Below, piece by piece: positions 280 to 12,014 of a stretch of 12,014 nucleotides of DNA. Position numbers and translations under genes: made by a program. Within the stretch, counting starts at the first letter, position 1. Each line of letters starts with the position of its first letter. The notes beneath the pieces were generated by a model that was not told the DNA's origin, ran no database searches, and was given only the letters and a program-made list of their open reading frames with translations. The DNA lies in the NCBI GenBank assembly GCA_025774205.1, contig JALGWK010000021.1, positions 1 through 12,014 on the forward strand, given 5' to 3'. The DNA comes from a bacterium (GTDB taxonomy: Bacteria; Blakebacterota; Blakebacteria; Blakebacterales; Blakebacteraceae).

Positions 280-1291
280 TGCTCTCTTGCCTCTCGACCG
301 GGACCCCGGCTCTGATCATCTTCTCCCGGAGCTCGTCCTCGTATTCATCGTAGGTGTGCACATCCACCGGGTAGTCCCAGGGATTCACGTGCCTGACCGC
401 CCGGTTGTTGTTGGCCAGGTTGCGGGTCGGGCTCAGGAAAACACCGAACATGTGACTCAGTTTGCTGAGCGGGATGTAGGCCAGAAGCACACAGACGAGG
501 AGGAGATGGCCGTAGAAGAGCCCGCTGATCCCGCCGGGAACCACCGGCGAGAAATGGGTCAGTCCGACCGCGAGTTCCTTGATGCTTGCCACATCCGTCC
601 TGGTCAGGTAACGCATGAAGAAACCGCTCAGCCCGATCCCCAGCAGCAGGAAGAGCGGGAAGTAATCACCGGCCAGCGAGATGTACCGGACCTTGCTTTC
701 GGCAAACCTCCGGTAGAGCAGCCAGGCCAGTCCGCCGAGGAAGGTGAAGGAGGTGATGAAGAAGACCGGCAGGCCGATCTCGAGGAATCCGTCCGCCCCT
801 TCCAGGAACGTCACGAATCCGGGCACCGGGTTCACCATGAGGCGGAGGTGGCGCACGACGACGACCAGGAGTGACCAGTGCATCATCATGCCCGCCAGCC
901 AGAGCCATATCTCGGTGCTGTACACGAGGCGCTTGCCATCCACCATCGAGGCCTTCGTGTTTTTGAGCAGGGACCTGAAGAAGAGGACTTCCAGAAGCAT
1001 CCTGCCGATCACCTGGAGACCGGTGAACGGATTGTCGAACTTGCTCTGGTCGATCCACTCCAGCGACTTCTGCTGACCGCTCGTGGTCGGAATCCGGAAC
1101 GGGACATCGCTCCTGGTCCAGTCCATGATGCGGGCGATCGTTCCTCCCAGGAAGGCGATCACAGCCGCGTAGGGAAGGACGACACCGAAGAGCCACCCGA
1201 TGCCGGGGATCCCTCCGAGCATGCCCAGCAGGAACAGACCTGCGACCGCTGCCAAGGGTACCATGATGTTCATCGAAGTCTCTTTCAGCAT
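272..1291 (-). CDS. dsrM: DsrM, membrane cytochrome b subunit of the DsrMKJOP complex
   Basis: This is a 339-residue NarI-like integral membrane protein thought to exchange electrons with menaquinol and pass them through two b hemes to DsrK. Hydrophobic segments lie at about residues 9-26, 32-54, 127-147, 168-193, 209-226 and 255-275. Four histidines, H138, H148, H262 and H280, are spaced 10 and 18 apart. This is the same spacing as the heme ligands of E. coli NarI (H56/H66 and H187/H205), so a di-heme protein is expected. The soluble tail after residue 290 is charged. The chosen start, MLKETSMN, overlaps the rsbRD stop by 7 bases (ATGCTGA). An internal ATG at residue 7 (position 1273) is also possible, since GAAAGAGA lies before it. 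The stop overlaps dsrK. Confidence 0.93.
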   Translation of the reverse strand: MLKETSMNIMVPLAAVAGLFLLGMLGGIPGIGWLFGVVLPYAAVIAFLGGTIARIMDWTRSDVPFRIPTTSGQQKSLEWIDQSKFDNPFTGLQVIGRMLLEVLFFRSLLKNTKASMVDGKRLVYSTEIWLWLAGMMMHWSLLVVVVRHLRLMVNPVPGFVTFLEGADGFLEIGLPVFFITSFTFLGGLAWLLYRRFAESKVRYISLAGDYFPLFLLLGIGLSGFFMRYLTRTDVASIKELAVGLTHFSPVVPGGISGLFYGHLLLVCVLLAYIPLSKLSHMFGVFLSPTRNLANNNRAVRHVNPWDYPVDVHTYDEYEDELREKMIRAGVPVERQESNV

Positions 1292-1836
1292 TCGCTCGTA
1301 TCGTCAGCCCCGTCAGCCTTGTCGGGCTCGGGGCATCCGTCACGTTCGCCCATCTTTTCGAGCACCCAGGAAACGCTCCTCTTCGCTTCGTTGACCCGGA
1401 GCTCGTAGACCTGCTTCCGGTACTCTCCATAGACATCGAAGGTGGCCAGCGCGATCTCGTCGATCTTCCGGTCGAGACCGCCCCACATTTCCGTGAGACC
1501 GGGATCAGCGATGCTCTCCGTCAGTACTGCCCGGACGGCGTCCTTGAGCCGGAACACGAAGGCGAGACCCTCCGAGGCCGGGAACTGCTGGACCGCCCTG
1601 ATCTGGATGATCTCGGAAAGATGCTCCGAGATCGCGCCCGCGTCCTCACCCGCCAGCAGGGCCGAGAAGGCATTCTCCGTACCGTTCCTGATACTGGCGC
1701 CCACCGGATTGGCGAAGGGATCCTGCTCAGTGCCGAAGAGCATCACCGCATCCTCTTCGTAGATCTCCAGCGTGAAATCCACCCATTTCCGGACGATCGG
1801 ATCCTTCATCTCACTGAGCAATTGCTCCAGCGTCAT
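1285..1836 (-). CDS. Stand-alone RsbRD N-terminal-type sensor domain protein, linked to dsrM
   Basis: This 183-residue protein is soluble and mostly helical, with no signal peptide or membrane segment. It resembles the N-terminal globin-like sensor domain of RsbRD stressosome co-antagonists. Recognisable parts are the start MTLEQLLSEMKDPIVRKW, the DPFANPVGASI segment at about 39-49, and the IQIRAVQQFPASEGLAFVF segment at about 76-95. It has no STAS domain, so it is not a full stressosome protein. Similar small proteins are known directly upstream of dsrM in sulfate reducers, and their function is unsettled. The C-terminus (after about 165) is acidic and holds the only two cysteines (DGC and the final SEC). 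The start is supported by GGAGG at 1845-1849, eight bases before the ATG. It overlaps dsrM by 7 bases, so a role in assembling or sensing for DsrMKJOP is inferred. Confidence 0.8.
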   Translation of the reverse strand: MTLEQLLSEMKDPIVRKWVDFTLEIYEEDAVMLFGTEQDPFANPVGASIRNGTENAFSALLAGEDAGAISEHLSEIIQIRAVQQFPASEGLAFVFRLKDAVRAVLTESIADPGLTEMWGGLDRKIDEIALATFDVYGEYRKQVYELRVNEAKRSVSWVLEKMGERDGCPEPDKADGADDTSEC

Positions 1837-2392: not shown

Positions 2393-2785
2393 TCAGGCGA
2401 ACTCGATGTCGACCCGCGGTGGATGGCTGAGAGTGCCGTGGATCACGCAATGTTCCGCCACGCGCTGCACGGCTTCTCTTCTGTCATCCGGAAAACCCTC
2501 CGGCAGATCGACGTCGATCACAATGCCGGCGATCCGTTTGGGGTCATCCGCGAGTTCCAGAGTGAGGCTGACACTGACGTCGCCATCGGTGTAGCCATGT
2601 GTATCACAGTAAGCCTGGACCATCATCGCGACGCAGGCACCCAGCGAACCGGCCAGGAGTTCGGCTGGAGCCGGCCCCCCGTCCTGGCCGCCGTCGCGGG
2701 CCGACATGTCGGCCTGAACGGTGTGCCCCCGGACCTGGATGACGAACTCCAGGCCACTCTCCCTCTCGATGGTGATCAGGTCCAT
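2393..2785 (-). CDS. OsmC/Ohr-family thiol protein
   Basis: This 130-residue cytoplasmic protein belongs to the OsmC fold, whose members reduce peroxides or act on small thiols and persulfides with a cysteine pair. The first family motif is AELLAGSLGACVAMM (41-55) with C51. The second is AEHCVIHGTL (110-119) with C113. These match the peroxidatic and resolving cysteines, so the site looks intact. C60 is extra. The length fits the small OsmC subgroup (YhfA-like, about 130-140). The ATG is 30 bases after sat; GGAAGG upstream is rather distant, so translation may be modest. Its place between sat and dsrC suggests a link to sulfur or thiol redox, but its substrate is unknown. OsmC proteins do occur near other sulfur-trafficking genes. 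Confidence 0.85.
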   Translation of the reverse strand: MDLITIERESGLEFVIQVRGHTVQADMSARDGGQDGGPAPAELLAGSLGACVAMMVQAYCDTHGYTDGDVSVSLTLELADDPKRIAGIVIDVDLPEGFPDDRREAVQRVAEHCVIHGTLSHPPRVDIEFA

Positions 2786-7658: not shown

Positions 7659-8924
7659 CTACTCCACGTGGAATTTCAGAGCTTTCATCGCGACGCTGGT
7701 GGCGTCACGTACGGATGTCGCGACATCGGCCGGGCGCCTGGCGCAGCCGGTGGCGAAGAGGCCTGCCACCGGTTGTTCTCCGACAAGGAACCCGTGTCGG
7801 TCGATCTGGATATCACTCTCCACCTCGGTATCACCGATACCGACCGGGATCATCCCGGTGGCGAGCACGACCATGTCGACCGTCCTGGTGATCTTCTGAG
7901 AGGTCAGCGCGTCTTCCGCTTCGATCGTGAGGCTTCCGCCGGCAGGATCCCCGGTGATCTTCGCCACCTTGCCTTTGATGAGGGTGAGACCCTCATCCGC
8001 CTCGGTCGCGGTGAAGAAGTCCTCCAGGCGACCCGGTGAACGTATGTCGATGTAGAAGATATGAATCTCCGCCTCGGGATACTGCTCACGGACGTACCGG
8101 GCCTGCTTCAGCGAACCGAGGCAGCAGACCCCTGAACAGTACTCGTAGTAGTTCTCATCCCGTGAACCCGCGCACTGCACGAAGGCGATCGATCCGATCC
8201 CCTCACCATCCGAAGGCCGGACGATCTTCCCTCCGGTCGGCCCGTTGATCGAGGCGTACCGCTCCATCATGACATTGGTGATGACGTTGGGGTACTCCCC
8301 GAAACCGTAACCCTCGAACTGCGTCGCATCGGGCGGATTCCAGCCGGTCGCCCAGATCACCGCGGTGACCTTGACTTCCATCGTCTCGGCCTGCATCGCC
8401 AGGTCGATGGCACCGTAGGGGCAGGCCTCCACGCACTTGCCGCACTCCGTCCCGGGACAGACCCCGCCATCGATGACGAACCGTGACGGCCAGGCCATCT
8501 CGTACGGCAGGTAGACGGCTCTGGTATTAGTCACACCGAGATTGAATTCATTGGGACGTTCCACCGGACAGGCGTCCACGCACTCACCGCACACTGTGCA
8601 CTTCTCGTTCACGAAGCGTGGATTCCGCCTGATGACCGCCGTGTAGTTGCCGGCCGTGCCGGTGATCTTCTCGACCTCTGAAAGGGTCAGGCACCGTATC
8701 CGGGGGTTGGTCCGGAACCGGCGCAGGTTGATCTCGAGGCCGCAGGCCGGCGGACACATCTTCGGGAAATACTTGTTCATGCGGGCGACGCGACCGCCGA
8801 CGAAGGCTTCCTTCTCCACCACGATCACGTCACTTCCCGCTTCTGACGCTTCAATGGCCGCCGTGATGCCGCTGATTCCGCCGCCGATGACGAGTATGGT
8901 GCCCCGCCCTCCGTTTCCACTCAT
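7659..8924 (-). CDS. qmoA: QmoA, HdrA-like FAD subunit of the Qmo complex
   Basis: This 421-residue cytoplasmic flavoprotein is related to HdrA and forms the QmoABC complex that passes electrons to AprBA. The FAD Rossmann motif LVIGGGISGITAAIEAS begins at residue 11, followed by the VVEKEAFVGGRVA segment. A ferredoxin-type motif CTVCGECVDACPVE (C109, C112, C115, C119) and a second one with an enlarged first gap, CPGTECGKCVEACPYG (C156, C161, C164, C168), are present. The HdrA signature CAGSRDENYYEYCSGVCC gives C251, C263, C267 and C268. The last domain, VDMVVLATGMIP (349-360) to ATGCARRP (391-398), completes the flavin site. The ATG shares ATGA with the stop of the upstream YkgJ-like gene, and AAAGGA lies inside that gene at 8931-8936, so the two are translationally coupled. 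Confidence 0.95.
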   Translation of the reverse strand: MSGNGGRGTILVIGGGISGITAAIEASEAGSDVIVVEKEAFVGGRVARMNKYFPKMCPPACGLEINLRRFRTNPRIRCLTLSEVEKITGTAGNYTAVIRRNPRFVNEKCTVCGECVDACPVERPNEFNLGVTNTRAVYLPYEMAWPSRFVIDGGVCPGTECGKCVEACPYGAIDLAMQAETMEVKVTAVIWATGWNPPDATQFEGYGFGEYPNVITNVMMERYASINGPTGGKIVRPSDGEGIGSIAFVQCAGSRDENYYEYCSGVCCLGSLKQARYVREQYPEAEIHIFYIDIRSPGRLEDFFTATEADEGLTLIKGKVAKITGDPAGGSLTIEAEDALTSQKITRTVDMVVLATGMIPVGIGDTEVESDIQIDRHGFLVGEQPVAGLFATGCARRPADVATSVRDATSVAMKALKFHVE

Positions 8925-9817
8925 GACTGTTCCTTTTCAGGGGATTCGGCAGGTTCAGATTTCGTCAGTTTTCTCTTGTCGAGCTTGCCCTTGTATGCCT
9001 CGGCGACTTCCGATCTGACTTTGACGGTCGGCTCACCGAAGAGGCTGAACTGCAGCCAGAGGAATCCGAACCGCATCAGCGCCTCATCGTCGACCCTCAT
9101 CGCCTCGGCGAAATCCTCGTCGATGTCGAACCGGTCCAGAAGGGAGCTTTCAAACACGAACTCCCGGAACTTGTCGAGGTCGTAACTCGCCGTGTAAAAC
9201 ATCTCCATCTTCTCGGGGGTCAGGGTGTTGCCCTGCTCGAAGTACTCGTTCAGGGTGAGTTCCTTGTATGCTTCCCCCCAGACGTCGTACTCATCCATCC
9301 CCTGGTCATCAAGCCAATCCCTGACCTTCCACTCCTTCGCCTCTCCGAATCCCTGGCAGGCGTCCTCCTTCAGGAGGAAATAGAACCGCTCGCCGCGCCA
9401 GCCGTCGGGGGTGTCTTTTGAGGTGGCCAGGCCGAGGGGATACATCCGGCAGGGCCAGGGACGGTCGGAATAGATTCCACAGCCCGATTCTTCCAGGAAG
9501 GGGCAGCTCTTGGCTTCGTCGTCCTTCATGCGGAGCACGACGATCGGTGTCTTCATGTCCTTCTGGATCGGGAGGAGAGTGTAGTTCTCGAGAAATTCCA
9601 TCGAGGTCAGACCCAGACGCTTCTTCATCCGGAGCACGTCATAGGGAGACAGGAAGATGTTCACGTCTCCGCAACACGTATTGAAACATGAGACTCCCGG
9701 ATGGCACCCGAACTGAATGGTGTCGTCCAGCTCAAGACGTTTGTGATCTTCCACGATCGTCTTCTGAAGACGCGTCTGAGCGTCTTCGGGCGGTATCTGC
9801 TGTGTCTCGTCACTCAT
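8921..9817 (-). CDS. YkgJ-family Cys-cluster protein between aprA and qmoA
   Basis: This 298-residue soluble protein of unknown function has the metal-binding cysteine pattern of the YkgJ (UPF0153, Fe/Zn cluster) family. C38, C44, C48 and C49 form C-x5-C-x3-CC; C105 and C113 follow in SCPFLEESGCGIY; then C123 in RPWPCRMYPLGL, the family's clearest signature. C154 is extra. Residues after about 160 form a long, charged, helical extension rich in Asp and Glu, not part of the YkgJ core. The start at 9817 (MSDETQQ) is preferred over the open frame up to 9853, because the latter lies wholly inside the previous gene. The chosen ATG overlaps that gene's stop by 8 bases (ATGAGTGA). Its coupling to qmoA suggests a job in maturing or serving Apr or Qmo, which is inference. 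Confidence 0.8.
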   Translation of the reverse strand: MSDETQQIPPEDAQTRLQKTIVEDHKRLELDDTIQFGCHPGVSCFNTCCGDVNIFLSPYDVLRMKKRLGLTSMEFLENYTLLPIQKDMKTPIVVLRMKDDEAKSCPFLEESGCGIYSDRPWPCRMYPLGLATSKDTPDGWRGERFYFLLKEDACQGFGEAKEWKVRDWLDDQGMDEYDVWGEAYKELTLNEYFEQGNTLTPEKMEMFYTASYDLDKFREFVFESSLLDRFDIDEDFAEAMRVDDEALMRFGFLWLQFSLFGEPTVKVRSEVAEAYKGKLDKRKLTKSEPAESPEKEQS

Positions 9818-10115
9818 CCTCTTCACCCTTCCCTTCCCCAATTGTCCCTTCATGATCGACGATCATCTCGCGGGTAGCCTCATCTGACCAGACCGGGATC
9901 ATGAGCGTACCGCCATTGTTGGGATTGACGGCGAAACGGTAGGAGGCCTTCTGGTTGTACTGTTCCATCATCCATTCCCACCCACGCTGATAGTAGGAAC
10001 ACTCGTTGTTGAAACAGACCAGGAAGAACTCGTCGTCCCAGGACGCTCCGTCAGGAACGAGCCACTTGCTCAAATCAGAACCGCAATGGGAACATGTATC
10101 AGGAATGTCAGCCAT
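9810..10115 (-). CDS. Small Cys4 zinc-ribbon protein (Ogr/Delta-like finger)
   Basis: This 101-residue protein has no signal peptide or membrane segment. Four cysteines form CSHC (C8, C11) and CFNNEC (C34, C39). The C-x-N-x2-C form of the second pair followed by aromatic YY resembles the Ogr/Delta zinc finger, known from phage transcription activators. No phage gene is nearby, and the aromatic, tryptophan-rich remainder (GWEWMMEQY, 45-53) is not phage-like, so I read this as a zinc-ribbon protein of the Apr/Qmo locus. Its function is unknown; metal binding is likely. The start at 10115 is set by GAGGAG at 10120-10125, four bases upstream; an ATG at 10178 in the same frame lacks such a site. 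Its acidic C-terminus (GKGEEDE) is coded in the overlap region with the YkgJ-like gene. Confidence 0.75.
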   Translation of the reverse strand: MADIPDTCSHCGSDLSKWLVPDGASWDDEFFLVCFNNECSYYQRGWEWMMEQYNQKASYRFAVNPNNGGTLMIPVWSDEATREMIVDHEGTIGEGKGEEDE

Positions 10116-10380: not shown

Positions 10381-11682
10381 CTACTGCGTGATGTACTTCA
10401 CCGGGCGCTTGATCATCTCCCACTCGCCCGTGTTCCGGTCGTACTTGCAGTTACAGAAGGCAAGCCAGTTGTCGTTGTCCATGGTCGGCTTGTCATTGCG
10501 GAAGTAGTAACCGGGCCAGCGCGTCTCTTCCCTGAAGAGCATCGAGCGCACGTGTGATTCGGCCTGGTACATCCGGTGGATGCTTTCCCAGGAACGCATC
10601 AGCTCGTGCAGGCTGTCAGCAGCCAGGTTTTCGCTGTCTTCCTTCAGGAAGGCCAGCAGTTCGAGACCCCGCTCCATCAACTTGTCGTTGGTCTGGAACT
10701 GGGCCGAGACGCCACCCGCGTACTCATCCATGATCTTCTGCAGACGGTAGATGTGCTGCGTCGGACGGATGTAGTTGGGATTGATGGCCGGATCGGTCGT
10801 GGCATCCTTGTGCTCCTCGTACATGTCGAGAGGCTTCAGGATCTCGGCGATACGCTCGTCGATCACTGACTGGTCCACGTTCGGCAACGTGTTGTTGTCG
10901 AGGATGAACGCCAGAGCCGACTTCCCGACGATCCGTCCTTCGGTGAAGGATCCGGAGGAGAACTTGTGGCTCGAGGCTCCCGAGGCGTCACCGGCCGCAA
11001 AGAGACCGGACACGGTCGTCATGTTGGCGTAGCCCCAGAAGTACTCATCCATTGTCTCGTCGGTCTGGACATCTTCCGGACCTGAGACCCACGCACCCGA
11101 AGCACCGGAGTGGGACCCGATGAAGTAAGGGTCACACGCCATGATCTCGGAGGGCTTCTTGTCCGGTTCGGTATTCGTGGCGGCCCAGAGGATCGCCTGG
11201 GAGATGGTCATGTCGAGGAAGTCCTCCCACGCCTCGGCTTCCAGCTCCTTCAGCTTCTTCTTGGCATCCTTCTCGTCAGCTGCCGTATCAACGATGGCCT
11301 GGATAGCGTCGGCGGTCTGCATGTAGATGGGCGACTTCCCGTCCATCACATCCAGCATCATGAGCCAGTTCCGGATGTTGGCCGGTCTCGGCTTCACCTT
11401 GCCGTACGGTTCCCACTTGTCCAGCTCAGCGGCATTATCCTGCATGTAGTTGCCGCCGTAGGCGTTGGTTGCGATCGACTTGAAGAGGAGGAACCAGGCT
11501 CCCACCGGACCATAGGCGTCCTTGAAGCGGACCGGGATGAACCTGACTTCCTGGCAGGTCATTTCGGCACCGGCGTCGAGCGTGAAGAAGGTGCTCGCGC
11601 CCGAGTTGAAGGGCGGGTACCAGGAACGACCGAATCCCTCACCGGTGGAACGCGGCTTGAAGACGTGTACAGCTCCACCCAT
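10381..11682 (-). pseudogene. aprA: 3' in-frame segment of broken aprA
   Basis: This is the downstream frame. The internal ATG at 11680-11682 is the family's own methionine in the AMGGAV segment, not a natural start codon. No Shine-Dalgarno lies before it, although reinitiation cannot be ruled out. Any product begun here would lack the whole N-terminal FAD half. Confidence 0.85.
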
Positions 11683-12014
11683 GGAAGCCCTTTGCCTTGA
11701 ACACGTAGATCTTGTTCTCGCGAACGGAGAACCCGATCGCGCCGGCGCACCGGTCACCATCCATCAGCGGATGCGTGATGAAGACGCGCTCGAAGTACTC
11801 GCCGTCGGCCTCGGCCAGGGCGTTCTTCGCGGCCTCGGCCACGATGACCTTGTACGACTCACCATTGATCATGAGCTGCCAGCGACCCTCATGGACGTAG
11901 TTGCCTTCGTCGTCCGTCCAGATCGGCAGTCCCCACTTTTCAAAAAGGTGGACGGTGTTGTCTACGTGACGCGCGATGTTGACCACAACGTCCTCACGGG
12001 TGATCCCCATCAGG
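11639..12014 (-). pseudogene. aprA: 5' in-frame segment of broken aprA
   Basis: This is the upstream reading frame of the split gene, entering at the edge (12013-12011 is CTG, followed by the codons for MGITREDVVV). It encodes the FAD-domain part containing GRWQLMINGESYK and FSVRENKIYVFKAK. After position 11690 the last 16 codons and the stop at 11639-11641 are out-of-phase readthrough with no AprA similarity. Confidence 0.85.

Follow-up and report, generated by a model that had tools for sequence, protein, structure and literature searches.

Gene organization between aprA and qmoA

The window, i.e., the whole stretch of DNA analyzed here (12,014 nucleotides), is contig C11 of a 3.09-Mb genome that is 85.9% complete (G000). 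Its minus strand carries, in this order, aprA, a zinc-ribbon gene (ZnR), a YkgJ-like gene (YkgJ), qmoA, qmoB, qmoC, sat, an OsmC-like gene, dsrC, an RsbRD_N-domain gene, and dsrM. The qmoC gene downstream of qmoA passes the NF038018 model (G000:C11:4230-5366). The features around the two genes are these:

10381..12010, minus strand: aprA, with its N terminus outside the window (TIGR02061, 580 bits on 10381-11760)
9810..10115, minus strand: ZnR, first gene of the pair, an Ogr/Delta-like zinc ribbon of 101 aa (from the ORF and the PF04606 profile)
9999..10094, minus strand: ZnR Cys4 motif, C8-x2-C11-x22-C34-x4-C39
9810..9817, minus strand: 8-base overlap of the ZnR stop and the YkgJ start (from the sequence)
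8921..9817, minus strand: YkgJ-like protein of 298 aa, with a PF03692 CxxCxxCC domain and a C-terminal helical domain
9671..9706, minus strand: first YkgJ Cys motif, C38-x5-C44-x3-C48-C49
9437..9505, minus strand: second YkgJ motif, C105-P127 (C-x-F/L/M-L/V ... GC-x-I/V-Y-xx-RP-xx-CR-x-YP, including C105, C113, and C123)
8960..9355, minus strand: mostly helical C-terminal domain of YkgJ, about residues 155-286 (AlphaFold2, mostly pLDDT >90)
8921..8924, minus strand: ATGA common to the YkgJ stop (TGA) and the qmoA start (ATG), from the sequence
7659..8924, minus strand: qmoA, encoding a 421-aa HdrA-like FAD/Fe-S protein

A first-pass annotation of this DNA had placed a Cys4 zinc-ribbon gene and a YkgJ-like gene between aprA and qmoA, and we found both reading frames there, the former with its CxxC-x22-CxxxxC motif and the latter with its PF03692 domain. 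They are not chance ORFs, because both frames are conserved between phyla, with a mean column identity of 44% among 40 aligned ZnR homologs and 47% among 53 aligned YkgJ homologs.

Protein families of YkgJ and ZnR

The YkgJ-like protein of the window scored 35.5 bits against PF03692 (gathering score, 23), and all of the 53 aligned homologs matched this family. Eight cysteines are invariant in the alignment, the eighth being C154, and both the spacing of the first Cys motif and the regular expression of the second motif are kept in 53/53 sequences. What had been described as a long acidic extension is a conserved domain that is predicted with high confidence to be helical; the mean pLDDT of the whole model is 89.3 (AlphaFold2). 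Neither a Pfam family nor a solved fold matched this C-terminal domain in sequence and fold comparisons, and the same comparisons found no solved-structure relative of either protein of the pair. NCBIfam holds no dedicated model for YkgJ, and a search for viral relatives returned two weak partial matches only.

Among the relatives in the superfamily, FliB is the best characterized. Its CX4CX3CC motif binds a [4Fe-4S] cluster, and the enzyme uses SAM to methylate lysines under reducing conditions (PMC8598068). FliB and the YkgJ proteins have the PF03692 (YkgJ/UPF0153) Cys domain in common, with CX5CX3CC here in place of CX4CX3CC, and FliB has likewise been described with eight conserved cysteines (PMC8598068). 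By analogy, C38, C44, C48, and C49 are likely Fe-S ligands, so that YkgJ probably carries a [4Fe-4S] cluster and may be an enzyme. However, the apr-linked YkgJ proteins differ from FliB in having a C-terminal helical domain of their own, without a Pfam family, and in their genomic tie, which is to aprBA/qmo and not to flagella. The FliB model NF038110 scored only 16.9 bits on the window protein (E, 0.0035), far under its cutoff of 85 bits, and weakly matched 4 of the 53 members at an E of ≤0.01 (best, 4.3e-05).

The ZnR protein of the window fell slightly below the gathering score of PF04606 (24.6 against 26.3 bits, residues 7-49), while 40/40 homologs matched this family at an E of ≤0.1 (best, 4.9e-11), i.e., from sub-threshold to clear. 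The four cysteines are invariant with the same spacing in all 40, and this x2-x22-x4 spacing is that of phage Ogr. Unlike the Ogr/Delta-like zinc fingers, ZnR has about 50 further conserved residues (GWxWM...SYR...PVW) and lies in a cellular operon, with no phage relatives found: the window protein (P0002) had no match among the PHROGs, and a search for viral relatives gave zero matches. NCBIfam has no dedicated ZnR model. Fourteen columns of the ZnR alignment are invariant, the majority of them non-Cys, which suggests a conserved binding surface. YkgJ forms an apr-linked subfamily within a known Cys-cluster superfamily, and ZnR belongs to a zinc-ribbon family that has no name.

ZnR-type domains also occur in longer proteins. 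A SAM-dependent methyltransferase carries one at its C terminus in five loci (L181 4422-5495, L182 4324-5454, L202, L210, and L211). These fusions do not adjoin apr/qmo; in L181 and L182, photolyase-like and pyridoxamine-oxidase-like genes lie nearby, as judged by eye, and most genomes with such a fusion have a stand-alone ZnR as well. An N-terminal ZnR-type domain, unlinked to apr/qmo, is found in L183 (4930-5907), L184 (4706-5383), L185 (5700-6362), and L250 (5551-6219), and in the two that were checked, L183 and L184, HEAT-like repeats come next, with another zinc ribbon at the C terminus. Fusion to a methyltransferase or to HEAT-like repeats points to a module that binds proteins or clients, which is probably what ZnR is.

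Conservation of the gene order across phyla

A neighborhood scan, covering one genome per species and loci with short stretches of window protein only, gave 66 loci, assigned by their contig labels to Gemmatimonadota, Planctomycetota, Latescibacterota, Zixibacteria, Calditrichota, Ignavibacteria, Acidobacteria, Dehalococcoidia, Anaeromyxobacter, Desulfobacterota, and others. The order aprA-ZnR-YkgJ recurs in contigs labeled as about ten phyla. It is constant in the loci of the non-Desulfobacterota type where the contig shows it, apart from L002, which has no aprA, and L027 and L032, which read aprA-YkgJ-qmoA with ZnR not detected. The gene that follows YkgJ in these loci is qmoA in 25, qmoC in 5, and dsrA in 1; in L018, dsrAB lies directly behind YkgJ. 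The 8-base overlap and the shared ATGA reported by the first-pass annotation are as it said, and such overlaps recur, between ZnR and YkgJ in 19 of 34 loci (median, -4 bp) and between YkgJ and qmo in 16 of 29, counted with the start codon closest to the upstream stop.

The coupling to qmoA that the first-pass annotation emphasized thus holds for the window, but aprA is the more constant partner. Since aprA precedes the pair wherever the contig shows it and the next gene is variable, AprBA seems at least as likely a partner as Qmo. The pairwise distances over 24 loci agree in direction, correlating with those of AprA at an r of 0.85 (YkgJ) and 0.86 (ZnR) and with those of QmoA at 0.80 and 0.76, respectively, although this modest difference is a mild hint only because all of the genes have the same host history.

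Arrangements are more diverse in Desulfobacterota. YkgJ is divergent, ahead of aprB or sat, in the Desulfovibrionales-like loci L148 to L151 and L156, and convergent behind aprA in L154; L166 reads aprBA-YkgJ-YkgJ-qmoABC. The gene lies behind qmoC in L160, L178, and L180 and beside dsrC-dsrM in L162 and L164, and some Desulfovibrio-like genomes have a single YkgJ away from apr/qmo. In 36 of 73 Desulfobacterota-type genomes, no more than 10 kb separated YkgJ from aprA or qmoC (random expectation, about 1.3). Tandem YkgJ duplicates occur in L152, L160, L162, L164, L165, and L166, the two copies in L166 lying exactly between aprA and qmoA.

Co-occurrence with aprA

We drew 197 Desulfobacterota-type genomes evenly and counted YkgJ at an E of ≤1e-20 and aprA over its cutoff. 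The aprA gene served as the marker because the qmoC model overlooks divergent qmoC genes, which score 180 to 213 bits in many Desulfobacterota. YkgJ was present in 83 genomes and aprA in 78, with both in 76, and only 7 of the 119 genomes without aprA had YkgJ (table [[76,7],[2,112]]; Fisher p, 1.7e-43, which is not a strict probability as the genomes are related). Of the 62 genomes with qmoC over its cutoff, 61 had YkgJ. ZnR was found in 44 of the 197 genomes, a count that takes in longer proteins with a ZnR-type domain; 41 of the 78 aprA genomes had it and 37 did not. YkgJ and ZnR are therefore not an obligate pair (76/78 against 41/78), and we propose that YkgJ is the core component, with ZnR belonging to some lineages only.

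At least three of the seven genomes with YkgJ and without aprA look like assembly gaps. In G047, a fragment of aprA lies at the end of a contig; a short contig of G084 carries ZnR and a partial YkgJ with qmoCBA; G105 has qmoC; and the contigs of G084 and G187 stop where apr/qmo would be expected. G088, G169 (a weak match), and G178 are left. Among 298 Gemmatimonadota, ZnR and a high-scoring YkgJ occurred in the same four genomes only (G005, G006, G392, and G401), and aprA was found in the last three of these and also in G239 and G301. The window's own phylum was represented by four genomes, too few for statistics, and Archaeoglobus, Bacillota, Nitrospirota, and Chlorobia lay outside the genome sample.

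The first-pass annotation had named co-occurrence of the families with apr/qmo as support for its proposal, and co-occurrence is borne out by these figures for the Desulfobacterota-type genomes and by the three of four pair-bearing Gemmatimonadota that have aprA. Homologs mostly outside apr/qmo genomes, the pattern it had named as speaking against its proposal, are clearly not what the co-occurrence and linkage counts give.

Loci without the pair and the direction of sulfur metabolism

Two of the Gemmatimonadota, G239 and G301, have a contiguous sat-aprBA-qmoABC locus without the pair (L198 and L199). A search of both genomes for dsrA found none, and sulfite oxidation would fit this gene content. 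G032 has apr-qmo and dsrAB without YkgJ (L200 and L248). The two genes located between aprA and qmoC in "Ca. Thermonerobacter" are absent from green sulfur bacteria (PMC6338057). AprBA and Qmo can therefore be made without the pair. The first-pass annotation had suggested insertion of Fe-S or flavin cofactors; as an obligatory function this is unlikely because L198, L199, and L200 have apr-qmo without the pair.

G239, G301, and the green sulfur bacteria suggested a strict tie of the pair to the reductive direction. This was weakened by G006, which has a DsrL-like gene behind dsrAB, and by the genus UBA2156, for which only oxidative-type DsrAB has been reported (PMC10591310) and whose locus L008 has the pair. 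Because of these two cases, we do not claim a strict tie, and the association with the reductive direction is suggestive.

The single-contig chromosome MAG G005 carries ZnR-YkgJ-qmoABC-sat (L209), and a search of its genome for aprA found none; similar adenylate-cyclase-like or TPR-looking genes stand in a row at the expected apr position.

Comparison with known accessory genes

In Desulfovibrio vulgaris, QmoD (DVU0851) is encoded by the promoter-distal gene of qmoABC (PMC10920352), and it resembles the present proteins in being a small accessory gene of a qmo operon. However, the QmoD-like proteins are coiled-coil proteins of 226 to 255 aa, to which the ZnR and YkgJ families are unrelated. 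We considered whether DVU0851 (25.8 kDa) is a YkgJ homolog and rejected this, as the QmoD-like proteins of L168 and L169, from two Desulfovibrio-like genomes and identified by their position behind qmoC and their size, gave hhalign probabilities of 0.5% and 0.1% against the two families.

DsrD, which activates DsrAB allosterically (Ferreira 2022, cited by PMC10591310), is a possible parallel, being a small non-catalytic gene that accompanies a sulfate-reduction enzyme. ZnR and YkgJ are unrelated to it in sequence, with no match of either window protein to the DsrD profile PF08679, and the tie of the pair to the reductive direction is suggestive only.

The pair has very likely been seen at least once before. 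Between aprA and qmoC, "Ca. Thermonerobacter" was reported to have two genes for conserved hypothetical proteins (PMC6338057, accessible text), equal in position and number to those in the Ignavibacteria-type loci L024, L029, and L031, and these are very likely ZnR and YkgJ; the same text does not give the family or function of either. In the open-licence literature, we found no description of the families, distribution, or function of the pair and nothing relevant on YkgJ in sulfate reduction, in keeping with the earlier view of an undescribed accessory system.

Possible function of the pair

Judging from their genomic context, ZnR and YkgJ probably serve the first redox step in sulfate respiration as dedicated helper proteins. 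More specifically, they may form a dedicated accessory module, for maturation or modification, of the APS reductase-Qmo step in dissimilatory sulfate metabolism, a tentative reading to which we give somewhat less than an even chance. ZnR would be a small zinc-stabilized adaptor docking on AprBA, and perhaps on QmoAB too, by its conserved surface (GWxWM...SYR...P...W). YkgJ, with a [4Fe-4S] cluster in its CX5CX3CC domain, would be the enzyme that matures or posttranslationally modifies the docked client, on the model of its relative FliB acting on flagellin. Translational coupling would keep synthesis of the pair matched to that of AprBA and Qmo, and the pair would condition the enzyme for electron flow between quinol and APS without being indispensable for catalysis. 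We favor this docking and modifying reading because of the FliB analogy and the ZnR-type fusions. Against it stand the FliB score of 16.9 out of the 85 bits needed, the loci L198 to L200 without the pair, G005 with the pair and no aprA found, the unlinked YkgJ of Desulfovibrio-like genomes, the absence of ZnR from 37 of 78 aprA genomes, and the fusions away from apr/qmo.

YkgJ could alternatively be an assembly chaperone that supplies AprBA or Qmo with clusters or FAD, or repairs these cofactors, as the clients contain FAD and [4Fe-4S] clusters, the proteins are Cys rich, and the genes overlap within the operon; we regard this as rather unlikely, given that insertion does not strictly depend on either protein in L198, L199, and L200 and that known Fe-S carriers in Pfam and NCBIfam are not resembled. 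An electron-transfer or coupling subunit, in which the cluster(s) of a ZnR-docked YkgJ would be a missing relay or a second-donor site between QmoAB and AprBA, would account for genes sitting between apr and qmo and for eight invariant cysteines. Transfer from menaquinol through Qmo to AprBA has not been reconstituted and may need a second donor (PMC4215793, citing Ramos 2012). Nonetheless, FliB, the best-characterized relative, is an enzyme and not an electron carrier, some apr-qmo systems do without the pair, and the single Desulfovibrio-type YkgJ is unlinked, and so we hold this to be unlikely. In a stricter form, the missing coupling component would be YkgJ, together with ZnR in genomes that have it: an Fe-S protein through which QmoABC, with a second donor, could hand menaquinol electrons on to AprBA in the reductive direction. 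This form appears distinctly unlikely.

ZnR, with its PF04606 similarity in 40/40 homologs and its Cys spacing, could also be an Ogr/Delta-like transcription activator and YkgJ a redox sensor of the apr-qmo operon. Yet protein binding is a better fit to the ZnR-type domains that are joined to a methyltransferase or to HEAT-like repeats with a second ribbon, P0002 has no PHROG match, and ZnR lies inside the operon, behind aprA, all of which makes local regulation very improbable. Equally, there is little chance that the pair works for the sulfate-respiration island as a whole, or for Dsr, and not for AprBA-Qmo. YkgJ pairs by dsrC-dsrM (L162 and L164), dsrAB behind YkgJ (L018), YkgJ with dsrA and without aprA over the cutoff in G088 and G178, and the joint lack of dsrA and the pair in the apr-qmo genomes G239 and G301 would suit such a general role, but aprA is the closest constant neighbor in non-Desulfobacterota loci, G032 has dsrAB and aprA without YkgJ, and UBA2156, with its oxidative-type DsrAB (PMC10591310), has the pair in L008.

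Sulfate respiration is globally important, and its core parts list is usually taken as known. Present in nearly all of the Desulfobacterota-type genomes with aprA (76/78) and covered in Pfam and NCBIfam by a generic Cys domain only, YkgJ stands out as a strong candidate for an accessory factor that has been overlooked. This family also offers a testable handle on why in vitro reconstitution of electron transfer from Qmo to AprBA was not achieved and, if the suggestive pattern holds, a marker that could help to tell in which direction sulfur metabolism runs in uncultivated organisms from their genomes.

Other features of the window and related loci

The aprA gene of the window is split over two frames (11639-12010 and 10381-11760, minus strand), with the frame change near 11690. 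Its relatives have an uninterrupted reading frame, and the window seems a few bases short at this point, which may be an assembly error or a real lesion; it is seen in one MAG contig. Elsewhere in the genome, G000 has a second qmoABC set on contig C15 (L212 633-5527), with no adjoining apr and with A and B 51 to 55% to those of the window, and a third, more distant Hdr/Qmo-like set on contig C175 (L213 637-5285).

SEC-C-motif proteins (CPCGSGKKFKKC-like) adjoin YkgJ, ZnR, or qmo genes in L152 (4183-4950), L204 (1175-1933), and L179 (12060-13067). Within the island, the dsrC-dsrM part has a conserved RsbRD_N-domain gene (1285-1836, minus strand) and a conserved OsmC-like gene (2393-2785, minus strand), which recur in L014, L015, and L256.
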